A stretch of DNA of 64,000 bases from an uncultured Treponema sp. (GTDB taxonomy: Bacteria; Spirochaetota; Spirochaetia; Treponematales; Treponemataceae). Positions 3,506-56,507 of the stretch are shown in pieces (positions within the stretch are counted from its first letter, which is position 1; every line of letters begins with the position of its first letter). The position numbers and the translations under genes were made by a program. The stretch is from contig CAMVHR010000010.1 in assembly GCA_947167345.1 (NCBI GenBank), forward strand, positions 1 through 64,000, read 5' to 3'. Under the pieces are notes generated by a model, which saw only the letters and a list, made by a program, of their open reading frames with translations, searched no databases and had not been told where the DNA came from.

Positions 3506-3934
3506 TTAAATACTATCATTAAACGGTGTCTCTTGATATTTTAATGTACCGTTTCGTTTCCTGAAAGCCTTTTCTGCCTTCTTAAATTGAGTTCCATGTA
3601 AATCTTTTTGGACTCTGGAAAGTGAAATTCTTCCATGGTAAGAATCTAAATTAGTACATTTGCAAAAGTAATCGAGAGAAGTTTCTAGCTGTCTACTTGC
3701 CCATTCCCTGTCTTTTCCTTTTAATTCAATAAGATATGCAGCATTTTCTTGTACAATAAGAGCATAATCGCATTTATTGCCATTTTTTATTAAAACACCA
3801 TCAACACGAAGTGCTAGAACTTTTTTTTCATTTTTATTTTCAGCATGATAAATGCTTTTACTTCTTGCATCTTTCAAGGATATGTTTTTTCGAGTGTCCT
3901 CAAACAGCTTTGCTTCATTTGGAAAATCATTCAT
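3506..3934 (-). CDS. Small PD-(D/E)XK nuclease-like partner of the upstream ATPase
   Basis: MNDFPNEAKLF...KCDYALIVQENAAYLIELKGKDREWASRQLETSL: D...ExK followed by QLxxSL. ATG at 3934 overlaps the ATPase stop by 8 nt. Confidence 0.6.
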   Translation of the reverse strand: MNDFPNEAKLFEDTRKNISLKDARSKSIYHAENKNEKKVLALRVDGVLIKNGNKCDYALIVQENAAYLIELKGKDREWASRQLETSLDYFCKCTNLDSYHGRISLSRVQKDLHGTQFKKAEKAFRKRNGTLKYQETPFNDSI

Positions 3935-5171
3935 GATCTGAAAACTCCAAATCTTCCAAACGGGAATACTCTTCATTTATTGTTTTAGAACAAGTATCTA
4001 TTTCAGCAGGATTTATCTGTTCAATTTCAGAATCTTTTATGTCATAAATGCTGCCTTCTTTTATGACATACGCAGAAACATCACAATAATCTATGTGATA
4101 CTTTTGTTGCTTTATCATCTCTGAGTGAAAACCTTGGCGTCTAAGGGTTCCTGCATAAATGCAGTTATTCAAAGTTTCCAATACATAAGGACTGTGTGTT
4201 GTAATGAGCAGTGAATTGTTTTTCCTCTTGTTTGCATGAATGACAAGGGAATCTACAAGCCATTTTTGAGATTCTGGAAACAGATTTTGCTCTGGTTCTT
4301 CTACAATATTTATAAGATATTCGTTTATGTATTTTGAATATGAATCTGAATAATCCAGAATATCATTATCTGTAAAATTTTTATTTACACCTGAAACAAA
4401 TAGCAGATTCAGATTTTTCACGACATTTTCATTCTTAATGCCAGATAATATTTCTGACTGTTCATCAGAACTTAAAGAACAGAGCTTTTTCAAAATTGAT
4501 TGTGCGACATCTTGTGAAAGATATTCAGTTACAAGCATGAGTGGAATCATGGACTGTAAGCCACTGGAAGCAAAAGCTACTGGTAGTGCGACATTTGAAT
4601 TTGGTTCAGATACAATAAGAGAGTCGGTAGGCTCATCATATTTTAAACTGTATTTTCCAAGTGGAACTATATCATTATTAGTAAAATACTCATTTTTAGA
4701 TTTTTTTATTTCCTGCTGCAACCATTTGATTGTCTGTGGTAGATTTTTTATTTTATCTGCACCTGCCAGGACTGAAATTACATTGCGTTCGGAAGCAATG
4801 TACATGATTTTTGGACGCTTGTAATTTGCTTTTTGCTGTAGCGTAATTGTAAAATGATTTTTTATATATGTAAAATTTACAAAATCTCCATAGTATGCAA
4901 GTTCTGAGTCTTGCGTAAAATAGGAAGCTGGAAGTTGCTGATTTTTGCATAGGTCTATAAAGTCTTTTTCTGAAAAATCATCTTTTCCATAATCGCCACG
5001 AAAAAGTGCTTTTTCAAGCCAAGAGAAAGATGAATATAATTTTGCAACAGTACTTTTTCCTGCTCCCTGTTCCCCAATGAAAACTGAAAACTTACAGATA
5101 TTCATAAAACCGTCATTGTCTGTGAAACCATTTTTTATTGGACCGAAATTTTTTATTTTCAAGGTAACCAT
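3927..5171 (-). CDS. AAA family ATPase, OLD-like/ABC-type
   Basis: MVTLKIKNFGPIKNGF...FIGEQGAGKST (Walker A), SSGLQSMIPL (signature), NIVEEPEQNLFP (Walker B), LLITTHSPYVLE (H-loop). ATG at 5171 preferred over the track start. Confidence 0.85.
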   Translation of the reverse strand: MVTLKIKNFGPIKNGFTDNDGFMNICKFSVFIGEQGAGKSTVAKLYSSFSWLEKALFRGDYGKDDFSEKDFIDLCKNQQLPASYFTQDSELAYYGDFVNFTYIKNHFTITLQQKANYKRPKIMYIASERNVISVLAGADKIKNLPQTIKWLQQEIKKSKNEYFTNNDIVPLGKYSLKYDEPTDSLIVSEPNSNVALPVAFASSGLQSMIPLMLVTEYLSQDVAQSILKKLCSLSSDEQSEILSGIKNENVVKNLNLLFVSGVNKNFTDNDILDYSDSYSKYINEYLINIVEEPEQNLFPESQKWLVDSLVIHANKRKNNSLLITTHSPYVLETLNNCIYAGTLRRQGFHSEMIKQQKYHIDYCDVSAYVIKEGSIYDIKDSEIEQINPAEIDTCSKTINEEYSRLEDLEFSDHE

Positions 5172-5312
5172 AACATTATTATACCAATTTAATGTAAAAA
5201 TAGAAGTATATTTTGTAGATTTCATAATGGAGCCTTGTCGTGAACCAAAACAGCTTTACAGTCTGTATTAACAGTGATAGTATAAAGACAGTTTTAATAC
5301 AGAGACAATAAA

Positions 5313-6932
5313 ATGAATGGAGATGAAAAAGTCTTAAAATTTGCAACAGAATTGACGGATGAACAGCTTTTTGCTGTAAATGGAGGAGGCTGGCGTTCTA
5401 GTAGCAGCTCCAGTTCATCAAGTAGCAGTTCTCGTTCTTCTGGTAGGAGTTCCAGCTATTCGAGCGGTTCGCACGGAGGCTCTGGAAGCAGCCGTTCGTC
5501 AGGAAGCAGCTCAAAATCTTCTGGTAGCAGCTCAAAATCAAGTGGAAGCTCAAAAAGTAGTGGTAGCAGCCTGGGAAGTAAAATCAGTAGTGCAGCATCA
5601 AGCATAGGAAGCAAGATTAGCAGTGCGGCATCGAGCGTAGCATCAAAAGTCAGCAGTGCTGTAAGCGGAAACAAACAGAATTCCAGCCAGCAGAAGTCTG
5701 GTGCCCAGAAAGCGGCAGCAGTGGCTAAAGGACATATAAATTCTAGTCCAGCAAGCGTTGTTGCCGGTACTGCGGGAACCGGTGCAAAGACATCAAAGCC
5801 GTCAGGAACGGCAGCAACTTCTACTACTGCTACACAAAAGCCTCAGGCAACAGCCAGTGCACCGCAAAATACAGTTACCGTGACAAGAACAACAAACAGT
5901 AGTGCTGATAATGCACCTACGGGAATGACGGGAAGTTCGTCAACTTACCTGTCAGGAAACTTTTCATCATGGAATAATACATCTTCTAGTACAAGTACAG
6001 GACAGAAGCCTAAAACTAATTCATGGAATAGTAGCAGTTCAAGTTCTTCCAGCAGCAGTTCGAATTATTCAAGTGGAGGAAGCAGTTACAGTAATAATAC
6101 GGATTATAGAGGTTATCCTCATACTACGCAGTATATTTCAGCTCCTCAGACAGAAGCCGTTTCTTCTGTAAACGGTGCAGAAATAGTAGGAAATGCTGAT
6201 AATAATACGGTTTCAAGTCCAGAAACAGCATCTGCTTTACCATTATCCACTATGGAAAATGTACCTGAAGAAATAAGTTCTGCAATTACGGAGTCCATTA
6301 CAGAACAAACTTCATCTCAGAATCTGTATAAAGAAATACCTGCTAATTCAGCAACGGCATGGGGACTTTCTACGGAACTTGCAGACAAAAAGAATATGCA
6401 AGAGTATGAAGGTACAGATGATGATGACAAAATGAATGGCGAGGGAAATAAATTCAGCAAAAAAGGCTGTAAGATGGCTTCTACGGCAAAAATGATAAGT
6501 GATGCATTAGGAATAGATGTAAGTCTTATTGATATAAATAGTTATGATTCAAATAATGATGGATGCATGTCCGAAGAGGAGATAGCTTCTGCATTTAGGT
6601 CTTACCTTTCAGCAAATGATTCTGATGCAGAGTTAAAAACCGACTATTGGAAAGATAAGCTTTCAAAAGAAAAGCTAAATGAAATAGTAGCAAAAGAAGA
6701 AGGTACTACGTATGTACTTGGACAAGCAAAAGATGTTTTTGGCGGTGATCATTGGGTTGTACTTACAGGCTACAGACTTAATGATAATGGACAGATACAG
6801 TTTAATTATTCTGGTTCTAGTGTAAATGATGCTAAGCAGCATAGAAATTATATTTTAGGTGAAGCTCTTAGTACACAAAGTGATACATATACTATAACTA
6901 AAATAGAAACATATACATTAGTAAAACATTGA
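5313..6932 (+). CDS. Double-glycine-leader, Ser-rich protein with EF-hand loop and C39-like papain-fold domain
   Basis: Leader MNGDEKVLKFATELTDEQLFAVNGG|GW; long Ser/Gly/Ala low-complexity stretch; EF-hand loop DSNNDGCMSEEE; C-terminal KKGCKMASTAKMISDALG ... GGDHWVVLTGY (Cys/His of C39-like peptidases). Confidence 0.7.
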   Translation: MNGDEKVLKFATELTDEQLFAVNGGGWRSSSSSSSSSSSSRSSGRSSSYSSGSHGGSGSSRSSGSSSKSSGSSSKSSGSSKSSGSSLGSKISSAASSIGSKISSAASSVASKVSSAVSGNKQNSSQQKSGAQKAAAVAKGHINSSPASVVAGTAGTGAKTSKPSGTAATSTTATQKPQATASAPQNTVTVTRTTNSSADNAPTGMTGSSSTYLSGNFSSWNNTSSSTSTGQKPKTNSWNSSSSSSSSSSSNYSSGGSSYSNNTDYRGYPHTTQYISAPQTEAVSSVNGAEIVGNADNNTVSSPETASALPLSTMENVPEEISSAITESITEQTSSQNLYKEIPANSATAWGLSTELADKKNMQEYEGTDDDDKMNGEGNKFSKKGCKMASTAKMISDALGIDVSLIDINSYDSNNDGCMSEEEIASAFRSYLSANDSDAELKTDYWKDKLSKEKLNEIVAKEEGTTYVLGQAKDVFGGDHWVVLTGYRLNDNGQIQFNYSGSSVNDAKQHRNYILGEALSTQSDTYTITKIETYTLVKH

Positions 6933-52789: not shown

Positions 52790-53728
52790 ATGAAAAAGAT
52801 ATCTACCATAGTTCCTGTTTATAATGAAGAAAAAAATGTTCTTTTAATGCACCAAGCTTTAAAAGACGTTGCATCAAAGCTTCCCCAATATGACTGGGAG
52901 TTTATTTATATTAATGACGGCAGCGTGGATTCTTCCTGGGCTAACTTACAAAAAATCGCTGATGATGATAAGCGGGTAGTGGCCCTGGACTTTAGCAGGA
53001 ACTTTGGTAAAGAAATAGCATTAACAGCAGGGGTGCAGAACTGCACAGGAGACGCTGCAATCTTTTTGGATTCAGACCTGCAGCACCCGCCGGCCCTTAT
53101 ACCAGACTTTGTTAAAAAGTGGGAAGAAGGGGCAGAGGTTGTAGCAAGTATCCGAAAGTCAACTGAAAAAAAATCCTTTATAAAAAATGCAGGCTCTCAT
53201 TTGTTTTATGCCATGATAAAAAAAATGGGTGGTATGCGGATTACTGAGAATGCAACTGACTTTAAACTTATAGATAAAAAAGTAATAAATGAGCTTTGTA
53301 AATTTACAGAGCACAAACGTTTATTCCGTGGACTTATTGAATGGATGGGCTTTAAGACTGAATATATTGAGTTTGTGGCTCCTGAAAGAATAAACGGGGT
53401 GGCAAGCTATTCTTTTAGGAAGCTTCTGTCGCTTGCCATTAACAGTGTTTCTAGTTTTTCTTTGTATCCTTTAAAGCTTTTTGCTTATTTTGGTGTTCTT
53501 TTGACTATGGGCTCTTTCTTGCTTTTGCTCTTTATGCTATTTCAGCGTTATTTTGGAGATGCTGGAATGTTTAGTTCTATAAGCTATGTTATTGTGTCTA
53601 ATACTCTTGTTTTAGGCATTATGCTTATGAGTCAGGGCTTTTTGGCCTTGTATGTTGGGCAGATACACAATGAAGTGCTTAACAGGCCTTTGTATGTGGT
53701 TAGAGAACGAATTGGTGAAAAAAAATAA
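52790..53728 (+). CDS. GT2 glycosyltransferase, polyprenyl-phosphate sugar transferase type
   Basis: STIVPVYNEEKNV; FIYINDGSVDSSW; DSDLQHPP; two C-terminal TM helices. Confidence 0.9.
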   Translation: MKKISTIVPVYNEEKNVLLMHQALKDVASKLPQYDWEFIYINDGSVDSSWANLQKIADDDKRVVALDFSRNFGKEIALTAGVQNCTGDAAIFLDSDLQHPPALIPDFVKKWEEGAEVVASIRKSTEKKSFIKNAGSHLFYAMIKKMGGMRITENATDFKLIDKKVINELCKFTEHKRLFRGLIEWMGFKTEYIEFVAPERINGVASYSFRKLLSLAINSVSSFSLYPLKLFAYFGVLLTMGSFLLLLFMLFQRYFGDAGMFSSISYVIVSNTLVLGIMLMSQGFLALYVGQIHNEVLNRPLYVVRERIGEKK

Positions 53729-53729
53729 A

Positions 53730-54845
53730 ATGTTAGTAGAATCATTATATATAGAAAATTTTGGGCCTCTAAAAAAAATAAAACTTGAAAATATAACACC
53801 ACTTACGGTTTTTGTAGGAGAGTCTGGAAGTGGAAAAAGTACTATAATGAAAGTTTTGGTACTGTTCAGATATTTATATAAAAAAGTAGTAATACGATCT
53901 TATTTAAGAAATTCTGGAATCTCTAAATCTCATTTTAGAATTCAGTTTAATTATTTTATAAAAAATAATGGTTTTGAAGGTTATATTTCTGATCAGACTT
54001 CAATTATATACAAACGTGGAAGATATTCCATCGAATATAAAAACGGGAAATTAAAACTTAATATTACAGTCTCAAATGAAGATTTATCTTTAGATAAAAT
54101 GAGTTTTATTTCTGATAAGCGAAATATTATTCCAGATATTTTAGAAAAAACTGTTTCAGTATCAGATAAGGATATGTATTTAAATGAGACTTGGCATGAT
54201 TTTCAAGATGCTACTTTGAATTTTACTTCAATGGAAATTCCTTACTTGGGAGTAGTTTTAAATAAAAAGAAGACCCAGAATGGAGTAAAATTTGTTGTAA
54301 AAAATAATAATCTTAGAGCTGAAAGTTATGAAATTGCATTTACGGATTCCTCATCAGGTACACAGAATGTTGCACCGCTTGTTAGTATTTTAGATTATTT
54401 TACGAATCATTATGATTTAATTGCTTCATTTAATAGGGCTATATTAGCTAATCTTTCTGATTCAGATATGTTAAGTAAATTCCGTCCAGAACTTGATATT
54501 GGAAAGATAAAATATAAAAATCTTTATTTTCATATAGAAGAACCAGAATTAAGTTTGTATCCATCTACACAAACAGAATTAATGTCTCAAATTGTGCAGC
54601 TATGTTTTGAAAATAACAATAAAACATTTAATACATATTGTATGATGACAACTCATAGCCCTTATGTTGTAAATTATTTAAATCTGCTTATTAAGCAGAA
54701 AAGGTTGAAATTTGATGATTTATCTGTTTATGAAGTTTTGGCAGGAAATTTAAAATCTCTTAAAAATGAAAAACTTAAAGTAATAGATACAACATTACTA
54801 TCTGAACCAATCTCTAGAATCTATGAAGAATATAACAGAGTTTAA
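53730..54845 (+). CDS. AAA family ATPase, OLD-like/ABC-type
   Basis: MLVESLYIENFGPLKKIKLENITPLTVFVGESGSGKST; SSGTQNVAPLVSIL; FHIEEPELSLYP; MMTTHSPYVVNYL. ATG 53730 follows the GT stop by 1 nt. Confidence 0.88.
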   Translation: MLVESLYIENFGPLKKIKLENITPLTVFVGESGSGKSTIMKVLVLFRYLYKKVVIRSYLRNSGISKSHFRIQFNYFIKNNGFEGYISDQTSIIYKRGRYSIEYKNGKLKLNITVSNEDLSLDKMSFISDKRNIIPDILEKTVSVSDKDMYLNETWHDFQDATLNFTSMEIPYLGVVLNKKKTQNGVKFVVKNNNLRAESYEIAFTDSSSGTQNVAPLVSILDYFTNHYDLIASFNRAILANLSDSDMLSKFRPELDIGKIKYKNLYFHIEEPELSLYPSTQTELMSQIVQLCFENNNKTFNTYCMMTTHSPYVVNYLNLLIKQKRLKFDDLSVYEVLAGNLKSLKNEKLKVIDTTLLSEPISRIYEEYNRV

Positions 54846-54847
54846 AA

Positions 54848-55483
54848 ATGTCTTTAGAAGCATTATTAGTAACAGACTTAGTTAAATATTTTGATTCTCA
54901 GAATTATAAAAGTTTTAAAGGAATAAAAGCTCCGACTGAATATACAAACAAAAAAGCATTTGGTTTAATGGATAAAGAAGACCCATTTATTGTAGAGGAA
55001 GCAAATGGCAGTGTAACGTATAAAAACGATTTGCAGAAAAATATTTGTATAACTAATTATGAAGAGTTTATTAATTCCTTGCCTAAGAGTTTACAAATTG
55101 GTAAAAAACGATGCGATTTCCTTGTATACCAAGATGATAACAATTCTTTTTTTATTCTAAATGAATTGTCACAGAGCAGAAATATAGATGCAAAAGAGTC
55201 TGATGCATTATATCAATTACAAAATACATTAGAAAATTTATGTAGTGTTGATACAATAAAAAGTATAATTAATTCATGTAGACAGCGGTTATGTGTTTTT
55301 TCAAATAAAGTAAAACCTGTAGAGGCCCCGCTTGGAATGACAGCAGGTTTTAATATGACGTATTCCACAGTAATGCTTGATGCTATAACTTTTGAATTTG
55401 ATGGTATTAATATTCATGGCTTTGAATATTATCGTGCAAACTGTATTGACATTGGCGAATCGATTAAATTAAAGAATTGCTAA
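54848..55483 (+). CDS. Nuclease-like partner of the ATPase (degenerate PD-(D/E)XK-like)
   Basis: KKRCDFLVYQDDNNSFFILNELSQSRN...ALYQLQNTLENLC; 2 nt downstream of the ATPase stop. Confidence 0.5.
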   Translation: MSLEALLVTDLVKYFDSQNYKSFKGIKAPTEYTNKKAFGLMDKEDPFIVEEANGSVTYKNDLQKNICITNYEEFINSLPKSLQIGKKRCDFLVYQDDNNSFFILNELSQSRNIDAKESDALYQLQNTLENLCSVDTIKSIINSCRQRLCVFSNKVKPVEAPLGMTAGFNMTYSTVMLDAITFEFDGINIHGFEYYRANCIDIGESIKLKNC

Positions 55484-55499
55484 AAGAATTTGTTTTACT

Positions 55500-56507
55500 A
55501 TGCAAAAAGTATCTGTAATTATTCCCATATACAACGCTAGGGAATATCAACTAAAAAGAAGTATAAACTCTGTTTTAAATCAAAGCTTCAAAGATATTGA
55601 GTTGCTTCTTATAAATGACAAAAGTAGCTTGTCTGAAACTTTGTCTTTTTTAGAAAAGGTCGGGTCTTTAGATGAACGCATCAAGCTTTATAACAACGAA
55701 ATAAACATGGGAATCTCACGTTCCAGAAATAAAGGTATTGAATTAGCTAGTGGACACTACCTTTGTTTTCTAGACCAGGATGATTATTACCGCTCTAATT
55801 ATATAGAAAAACTAGTAGCCGCTCTTGAAAGGGAAGATGCAGAACTAGCAATGTGCGGTTTTGATTCAATAGATGATAAGGAAAAGCTTATTAATACTTA
55901 TCCCAGCATGAGTGTAGATTCTTTGTGGCACCCCTGGTCCAGCTGCACCATCTGGAACAAGCTATATAAAAGACAGTTTTTATTAGATAATAATATAAAA
56001 TTTCCTGAAGGCTGCATGTCAGAAGACGTTATCTTTAACATGCAGTGCAACATGGAAGCAAAAGCCATGGCTATTTTGACAGATCGATTATATGTAAATG
56101 TGCAGGAAAAAACGTCTACTTCAAGATCGAAAAACTTTAAAGCCCTGAGATTGGAGCAAATGCCCCTTTTACAGCTTAGAGAAATTGTGGCTAAATACAG
56201 TCCTTGTAATAAATATCTGCATGCTTATGTCTGCAATGAGGTTGCTGTTCTTACCACTGTTTTAAGTCTTGGAAATAAGACTAAAGATCTTAAAGAAGTT
56301 ATTCAATATCTTGGAAATACGGTAAGGACAGCCTGCAAAGGGAACAGCCTGAAAAATATTATTGAATATAATAATTATTATAATGACAGGCTGCTAATGA
56401 AAATATTAAATATCTGTGTACATATTTCCTATAAGATGCATATTGAAAAGCCTGTCTTTATTATTGTGCATTGGCTTGGAAAAGTTATGTACGGACACGT
56501 TTCGTGA
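55500..56507 (+). CDS. GT2 family glycosyltransferase
   Basis: VSVIIPIYNAREYQLKRSINSVLNQSFKDIELLLINDKSS; FLDQDDYY. Confidence 0.92.
   Translation: MQKVSVIIPIYNAREYQLKRSINSVLNQSFKDIELLLINDKSSLSETLSFLEKVGSLDERIKLYNNEINMGISRSRNKGIELASGHYLCFLDQDDYYRSNYIEKLVAALEREDAELAMCGFDSIDDKEKLINTYPSMSVDSLWHPWSSCTIWNKLYKRQFLLDNNIKFPEGCMSEDVIFNMQCNMEAKAMAILTDRLYVNVQEKTSTSRSKNFKALRLEQMPLLQLREIVAKYSPCNKYLHAYVCNEVAVLTTVLSLGNKTKDLKEVIQYLGNTVRTACKGNSLKNIIEYNNYYNDRLLMKILNICVHISYKMHIEKPVFIIVHWLGKVMYGHVS

Follow-up and report, generated by a model that had tools for sequence, protein, structure and literature searches.

The DNA analysed here, referred to below as the window, is a stretch of 64,000 nucleotides from an uncultured Treponema sp., in which two genes of a putative two-component module lie on the plus strand between two GT2 genes: an ABC/OLD-type ATPase of 371 aa (53730..54845, stop codon 54843-54845) and a partner of 211 aa (54848..55483), a PD-(D/E)xK-like protein, predicted to be a nuclease, whose catalytic lysine has apparently moved from the ExK motif to the following helix. 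This pair is called copy 2; copy 1 is found on the minus strand, and is composed of an ATPase (3927..5225) of the PDC-M29A subfamily (PDC-M29A match 5.7e-92) and a partner (3506..3934) the start of which overlaps the end of the ATPase gene, and which carries the canonical ExK motif (E70-L71-K72) and matches PDC-M29B at 1.6e-7. Two other features of the window may be mentioned: two short minus-strand ORFs at 1901-2771 resemble pieces of one interrupted ATPase, possibly a pseudogene (P-loop start at 2771, C-terminal part at 1901-2371), and a plus-strand gene adjoining copy 1 (5313-6932) encodes a Ser-rich protein with a double-glycine-type leader at its start (ELTDEQLFAVNGG).

The copy 2 ATPase frame is open from 53652, and the ATG at 53730 is the start that agrees with the N-terminus of the family; it follows the stop codon (53726-53728) of the upstream GT2 gene (52790..53728, plus strand) after 1 nt. 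Two nucleotides separate the ATPase stop from the partner start, and 16 nt separate the end of the partner from the ATG at 55500 of the downstream GT2 gene (55500..56507, plus strand). According to Pfam, the genes 5' of the module encode a UDP-glucose dehydrogenase (UGD), a UDP-sugar epimerase/decarboxylase-type protein (UXS) and the GT2, which together form a UGD-UXS-GT2 block common to several other Treponema, while on the 3' side the GT2 is the first gene of a strain-variable part and is accompanied by a GT4, a hexapeptide transferase and an FkbM methyltransferase. The coordinates, frames, spacings and motifs quoted in a preliminary description of this DNA were all recovered as given, and its placing of one member of the pair of modules within a glycan operon holds as well. 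Promoter-like sites (23 observed versus 24.9 in shuffled sequences) and terminator-like sites (4 versus 4.7) do not exceed the shuffled level at the copy 2 locus, so that no visible element isolates the pair, and its co-transcription with the glycan operon is plausible.

The ATPase and its place among known and candidate two-gene defence systems

The copy 2 ATPase displays a Walker A motif (G30-T38), a signature-like SSGxQ motif (208-212), the EE of Walker B (270-271) and an H-loop, TTHSPY (307-312); across 81 ATPase relatives the Walker A Lys, SSGxQ, the Walker B EE and the THSPY of the H-loop are 94-100% conserved. In Pfam the protein matches AAA_15 (6.3e-17), and in PADLOC its best match is PDC-M29A (2.6e-38), followed by AriA (2.2e-20); two orthologues match PDC-M29A at 2.9e-43 and 1.3e-43. 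Related loci (designated below by L and a number) were found with the ATPase profile; a search with the partner alone returned none, and PF13175, applied to the whole genus, lacked the specificity to be of use. The adjacent two-gene layout, with the ATPase first, is present in 74 loci with gaps of -113 to +34 nt (median 0.5 nt); recurrence of the pair in over 70 loci at such tight spacing rules out a chance pair of ORFs. Partners are exchanged between ATPases, as illustrated by L078/L019 (ATPase 58%, partner 92%).

Homology of the copy 1 and copy 2 partners, claimed in the preliminary description, was borne out by the profile comparison which that description had itself proposed as a test: hhalign gives a probability of 95.6% (E 1.3e-8) and, in a second alignment, of 94.4% (E 8.4e-8), to be compared with at most 1.1% in 32 comparisons with 16 unrelated profiles and at most 0.1% with 8 column-shuffled profiles. 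The two diverged copies thus belong to one family, as had been suggested, but not as copies made in this genome; the ATPase tree separates the two types by long branches (100% SH-aLRT), and on this phylogeny copies 1 and 2 appear as two old subfamilies rather than products of a local duplication, most likely acquired separately. Among 200 Treponema genomes, only that of the window has both types. Neighbouring modules are observed in other arrangements too: in a rumen Bacteroidales locus (L286, 8895-15442) a copy-1-type and a copy-2-type module lie about 3 kb apart, followed by genes for a nucleotide-sugar dehydrogenase, RmlA and two FdtA-like proteins, and a Treponema locus (L126, G041:C44, 343-15390) contains three copy-1-type modules within 15 kb, two of which are sister sequences.

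PDC-M29, composed of M29A and M29B, is reportedly a PADLOC candidate system proposed by Payne et al. on the basis of guilt-by-embedding. PDC systems are largely candidates without validation (PMC12988326); the copy 2 ATPase matches this one by a wide margin, and the two-gene layout is the same. The same general plan, as far as architecture can be compared from the published description, characterizes WonAB, an operon of an ABC-ATPase and a small PD-(D/E)xK nuclease in the WASA-1 prophage of Vibrio cholerae, which aborts phage infection and halts translation, depends, as mutants in the ATPase and in the nuclease lysine demonstrated, on intact ATPase motifs and on that lysine (K71 of WonB, which is essential) as well as on the presence of the two genes together, and is regarded by its authors as part of a wider uncharacterised family (PMC12137116). 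WonAB differs from copy 2 in being located in a prophage instead of a glycan operon, and in having K71 at the ExK position, where the copy 2 partner has Ser108 and the copy 1 partner has Lys (K72). PD-T4-4, a two-gene anti-phage system made of a PF13175 ATPase and a PD-(D/E)XK domain protein (PMC10952713), resembles the pair in that the copy 2 ATPase matches PD-T4-4_A (2.2e-10) and one partner relative matches PD-T4-4_B (1.9e-4); the ATPase match is, however, far weaker than that to M29A, and the PD-T4-4 ATPase model is larger. PARIS, in which an ATPase ring sequesters the nuclease until a phage trigger frees it (PMC11455837), shares a similar AAA_15 ATPase (AriA) and the logic of a sensor coupled to a nuclease, but AriB is a Toprim nuclease and not a PD-(D/E)xK protein; in Pfam and PADLOC the copy 2 partner matched neither Toprim nor AriB, and likewise neither HNH nor PtuB, the partner type of Septu.

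The pair is quite probably a two-gene module of anti-phage type, of the PDC-M29 kind and similar to WonAB in general plan, a function which we infer. A rather improbable account is that it constitutes a toxin-antitoxin or addiction pair stabilising variable glycan clusters after transfer, any effect on phages being secondary. Its small size and tight spacing, the nuclease-like partner, the sporadic spread, the residence in often-exchanged loci and the observation that the WonAB ATPase affects the level of its nuclease (PMC12137116) would all fit such a role; nevertheless, the complete and conserved ATPase machinery exceeds what an antitoxin usually needs, the nearest known relatives are defence systems, and the exchange of partners between ATPases is better suited to effector diversification.

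Distribution and embedding in surface-glycan loci

Modules of the copy 2 type are rare in the genus (3/200 Treponema genomes, compared with 26/200 for the copy 1 type), and their relatives outside Treponema are mostly found in Bacteroidota. All three Treponema copy 2 modules reside inside surface-glycan clusters, each of a different kind; besides that of the window, L009 has its module in a NeuB/NeuC/NeuA-type nonulosonate cluster and L010 in a GT2/sulfotransferase cluster. Of the Treponema loci with the copy 1 type, 4 of 23 have glycan surroundings; in one of these (L135) the module lies between NeuC and NeuB. The same scoring applied to loci of HsdR (type I restriction) and to random stretches yielded 0/20 in each case. 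In one-sided Fisher tests, which treat loci as independent and rest on small numbers, the comparison with HsdR gives p=0.0006 for copy 2 (3/3), p=0.004 when the window is left out (2/2) and p=0.07 for copy 1 alone (4/23), while both types together, minus the window's copy 2, give p=0.002 (6/25 versus 0/40). Outside Treponema the scoring identified glycan loci in only 2 of 78 cases, a lower bound given that the glycan-gene profiles were seeded from Treponema and are insensitive in Bacteroidota, where they missed most of the annotated glycosyltransferases of L262; one of the two, L045/L286, is by eye a nucleotide-sugar locus (RmlA, FdtA-like genes). No glycosyltransferase Pfam occurs in the 25 commonest families of 131 immediate neighbours, meaning that none matched more than two. 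In L262 (NZ_OY725969.1, 4139-5702), a record labelled as a Bacteroides finegoldii plasmid, a copy-1-type pair is flanked by glycosyltransferase genes on one side and by an O-antigen ligase gene on the other. Glycan embedding is recurrent, above the two controls that were run, but such loci may simply attract accessory genes of many kinds.

Immediate neighbours outside Treponema are mostly not defence genes; those of defence type next to copy 2 relatives comprise HsdR (L037), type III Res (L039), a type IIG enzyme (L043) and PifA (L049), and L037 and L039 belong to the same supported clade as L009. Matches to mad3 and mad8 in Flavobacterium, which seemed to indicate a link with MADS, were traced to an adjoining 943-aa UvrA-like gene and discarded; in three Flavobacterium genomes (L083, L086, L091) the module lies directly 3' of a uvrA-like gene. 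ATPases of the copy 1 type are present in phage and plasmid records, and the copy 2 ATPase has no match in such records at 1e-20. Microcystis phage Mic1 (L261, 2001-3239) encodes an ATPase related to that of copy 1, with no partner annotated after it and a DNA adenine methylase as the next gene, on the other strand.

Relatives of the upstream GT2 (E<=1e-60) occur in 24 other Treponema genomes, and in the 11 loci inspected other genes, and no module, are found at this position; the module thus lies where a shared block gives way to a strain-variable part. For the downstream GT2, relatives at E<=1e-30 are limited to 2 other Treponema genomes. The GC content of the module is 27%, compared with 45% for the UGD-UXS genes, but much of the distal glycan cluster is equally low, so that composition alone is no proof of transfer. 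The preliminary description had left a choice between coupling to glycan expression and recent insertion. Insertion is supported indirectly, by the 11 upstream-GT2 loci lacking the module; as to coupling, the embedding is indeed recurrent, but a glycan-specific function is unlikely, considering that the sugar types differ and that relatives outside Treponema are mostly located elsewhere, some of them beside restriction systems.

Very little probability can accordingly be given to the idea that the pair is there to work for the glycan locus, regulating capsule or O-antigen synthesis, for instance, or acting as an assembly factor in it. It would account for the three-out-of-three residence in Treponema glycan clusters, for the 1- and 16-nt spacing and common direction with the GT2 genes, and for the further embedded cases L286 and L262. 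It is difficult to reconcile, on the other hand, with host clusters that make different sugars, with relatives of the same architecture that are mostly elsewhere, including L037 and L039 with their restriction neighbours, with a nuclease-like partner, and with the absence of the module from the sampled upstream-GT2 loci; moreover, neither protein of the pair has a glycan-enzyme domain, and most relatives lie outside glycan loci. Rather than a glycan enzyme, a mobile defence module that has lodged in glycan loci time and again is the likeliest identity of the pair.

The partner protein and the position of its proposed catalytic lysine

The copy 2 partner gave no match to any Pfam, NCBIfam or PDC-M29B model, and a direct sequence search of the PDB returned chance matches only. 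In its family PDC-M29B is matched by 20 of 66 members (best 3.4e-10), HSDR_N_2 by 7 of 66 and SduA_C (Shedu) by one; among the Treponema partners those of the window and L009 have no PDC-M29B match, and that of the sister L010 matches at 7.7e-5. UvrD-like matches of the partner search (L007, L008) proved to be chance matches. In a Bacteroidia contig (L021, 9773-13819) a 206-aa partner and a following 485-aa gene occur twice in tandem.

AlphaFold2 models of the two partners have high pLDDT values (90.4 for copy 2, 91.2 for copy 1). Foldseek found no match at E<=0.001 for either model; weaker matches of the copy 1 model include Nt.BspD6I (prob 0.96), the repair endonuclease 2vld, Mus81, Card1, EcoO109I and Hef, but ribosomal proteins appear among them as well, and the rmsd is high. 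Assignment of the fold consequently relies on the motif, the order of elements, the homology with copy 1 and the weak family matches. In the copy 2 model, D90 immediately precedes strand 91-95, E106 forms part of strand 101-108, and helix 113-132 contains both K116, at its start, and Q123; the order of elements in the model is that expected of a PD-(D/E)xK core (strand-strand-helix with D, E and K), and the protein is best read as a predicted PD-(D/E)xK nuclease.

The putative catalytic residues, all on the plus strand, are well conserved. D90, the motif II Asp (RCD; 55115..55117), is invariant in 74 of 74 partners; in motif III, E106-L107-S108 (55163..55171), position 106 is E in 72/74 and D in 2/74; Q123, the motif IV Gln (55214..55216), is present in 73/74 and shares its helix with K116 (55193..55195), the proposed relocated lysine. 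The preliminary description had noted Ser at the lysine position of ExK, and this holds (Ser108); the lysine, however, is not simply lost, but appears to have moved to K116. Indeed, position 108 across the 74 relatives is K in 25, S in 24, T in 23, C in 1 and R in 1, and 48 of the 49 partners that lack the ExK Lys have K116, as does none of the 25 in which the ExK Lys is present, so that in 73/74 partners Lys is at 108 or 116, never at both; the exception, L085, has Arg at both. Alignment at position 116 is firm, being anchored by A120 and Q123, both conserved and only a few residues further on. In the copy 1 partner, E70, K72 and Q82 are invariant in 22 relatives.

When columns 108 and 116 are excluded from the partner tree, it implies a minimum of 6 switches of the lysine state, 3 of which supported branches make unavoidable. 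The ATPase tree implies 8 switches, and all 6 of its 6 independent pairs have opposite states; L060 and L066 (ATPase 90%, partner 78%) differ in lysine state although their ATPases are closely similar. In DUF506, DUF790 and DUF1626, the last of which has Thr at the motif III position, the lysine is known to have migrated out of motif III into the helix of motif IV. Like these families and the YhgA-like proteins, the present partners have the motif III Lys replaced and carry a basic residue in that helix (PMC1913061). They differ in that both lysine states coexist and switch repeatedly within one defence-type partner family. With respect to PDC-M29, the differences of the window's partner are its length (211 aa versus about 164 aa), its escaping detection by M29B, and Ser in ExK with Lys at 116.

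The simplest reading is that the copy 2 partner is a working nuclease, as predicted, with a relocated lysine. That it is instead a degenerate and catalytically dead family member, as the Ser in ExK and the lack of a matching family model might suggest, is hardly credible, considering its intact reading frame, the retention of D90, E106, K116, Q123, F168 and F192, the mutually exclusive occurrence of K116 and the ExK Lys, and the lysine migration documented in other PD-(D/E)xK families (PMC1913061).

Possible mode of action and significance

By analogy with WonAB and PARIS, a dimer (or a ring) of the ATPase would hold the nuclease inactive or unassembled and would sense a phage-made signal; the nuclease would then be freed to cleave nucleic acid (rRNA or tRNA may be the target of WonAB), and growth would be stopped before phage release. 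The module would have reached its present site by horizontal transfer, the variable portion of surface-glycan loci presumably being a recurrent site of lodging for such modules, and a locus that sets the phage docking site may thus also carry an internal defence. A stronger version, which is conceivable but unlikely, is that the glycan locus and the co-transcribed, co-transferred pair form one immunity unit, in which the glycan sets the receptor and the pair catches those phages that recognise the glycan; this would make such loci a preferred home of M29-type modules in Treponema and Bacteroidales.

The analysis delineates a divergent lineage within a family of candidate defence systems, a lineage whose partner is missed by the standard PADLOC model in this genome, and proposes for it a testable nuclease active site that includes a repeatedly switching position of the catalytic lysine. 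M29-type modules recur in surface-glycan loci; if this embedding means co-expression and co-transfer, variation of the phage receptor would be genetically linked to intracellular defence, and such a linkage would bear on how capsule exchange alters phage susceptibility.
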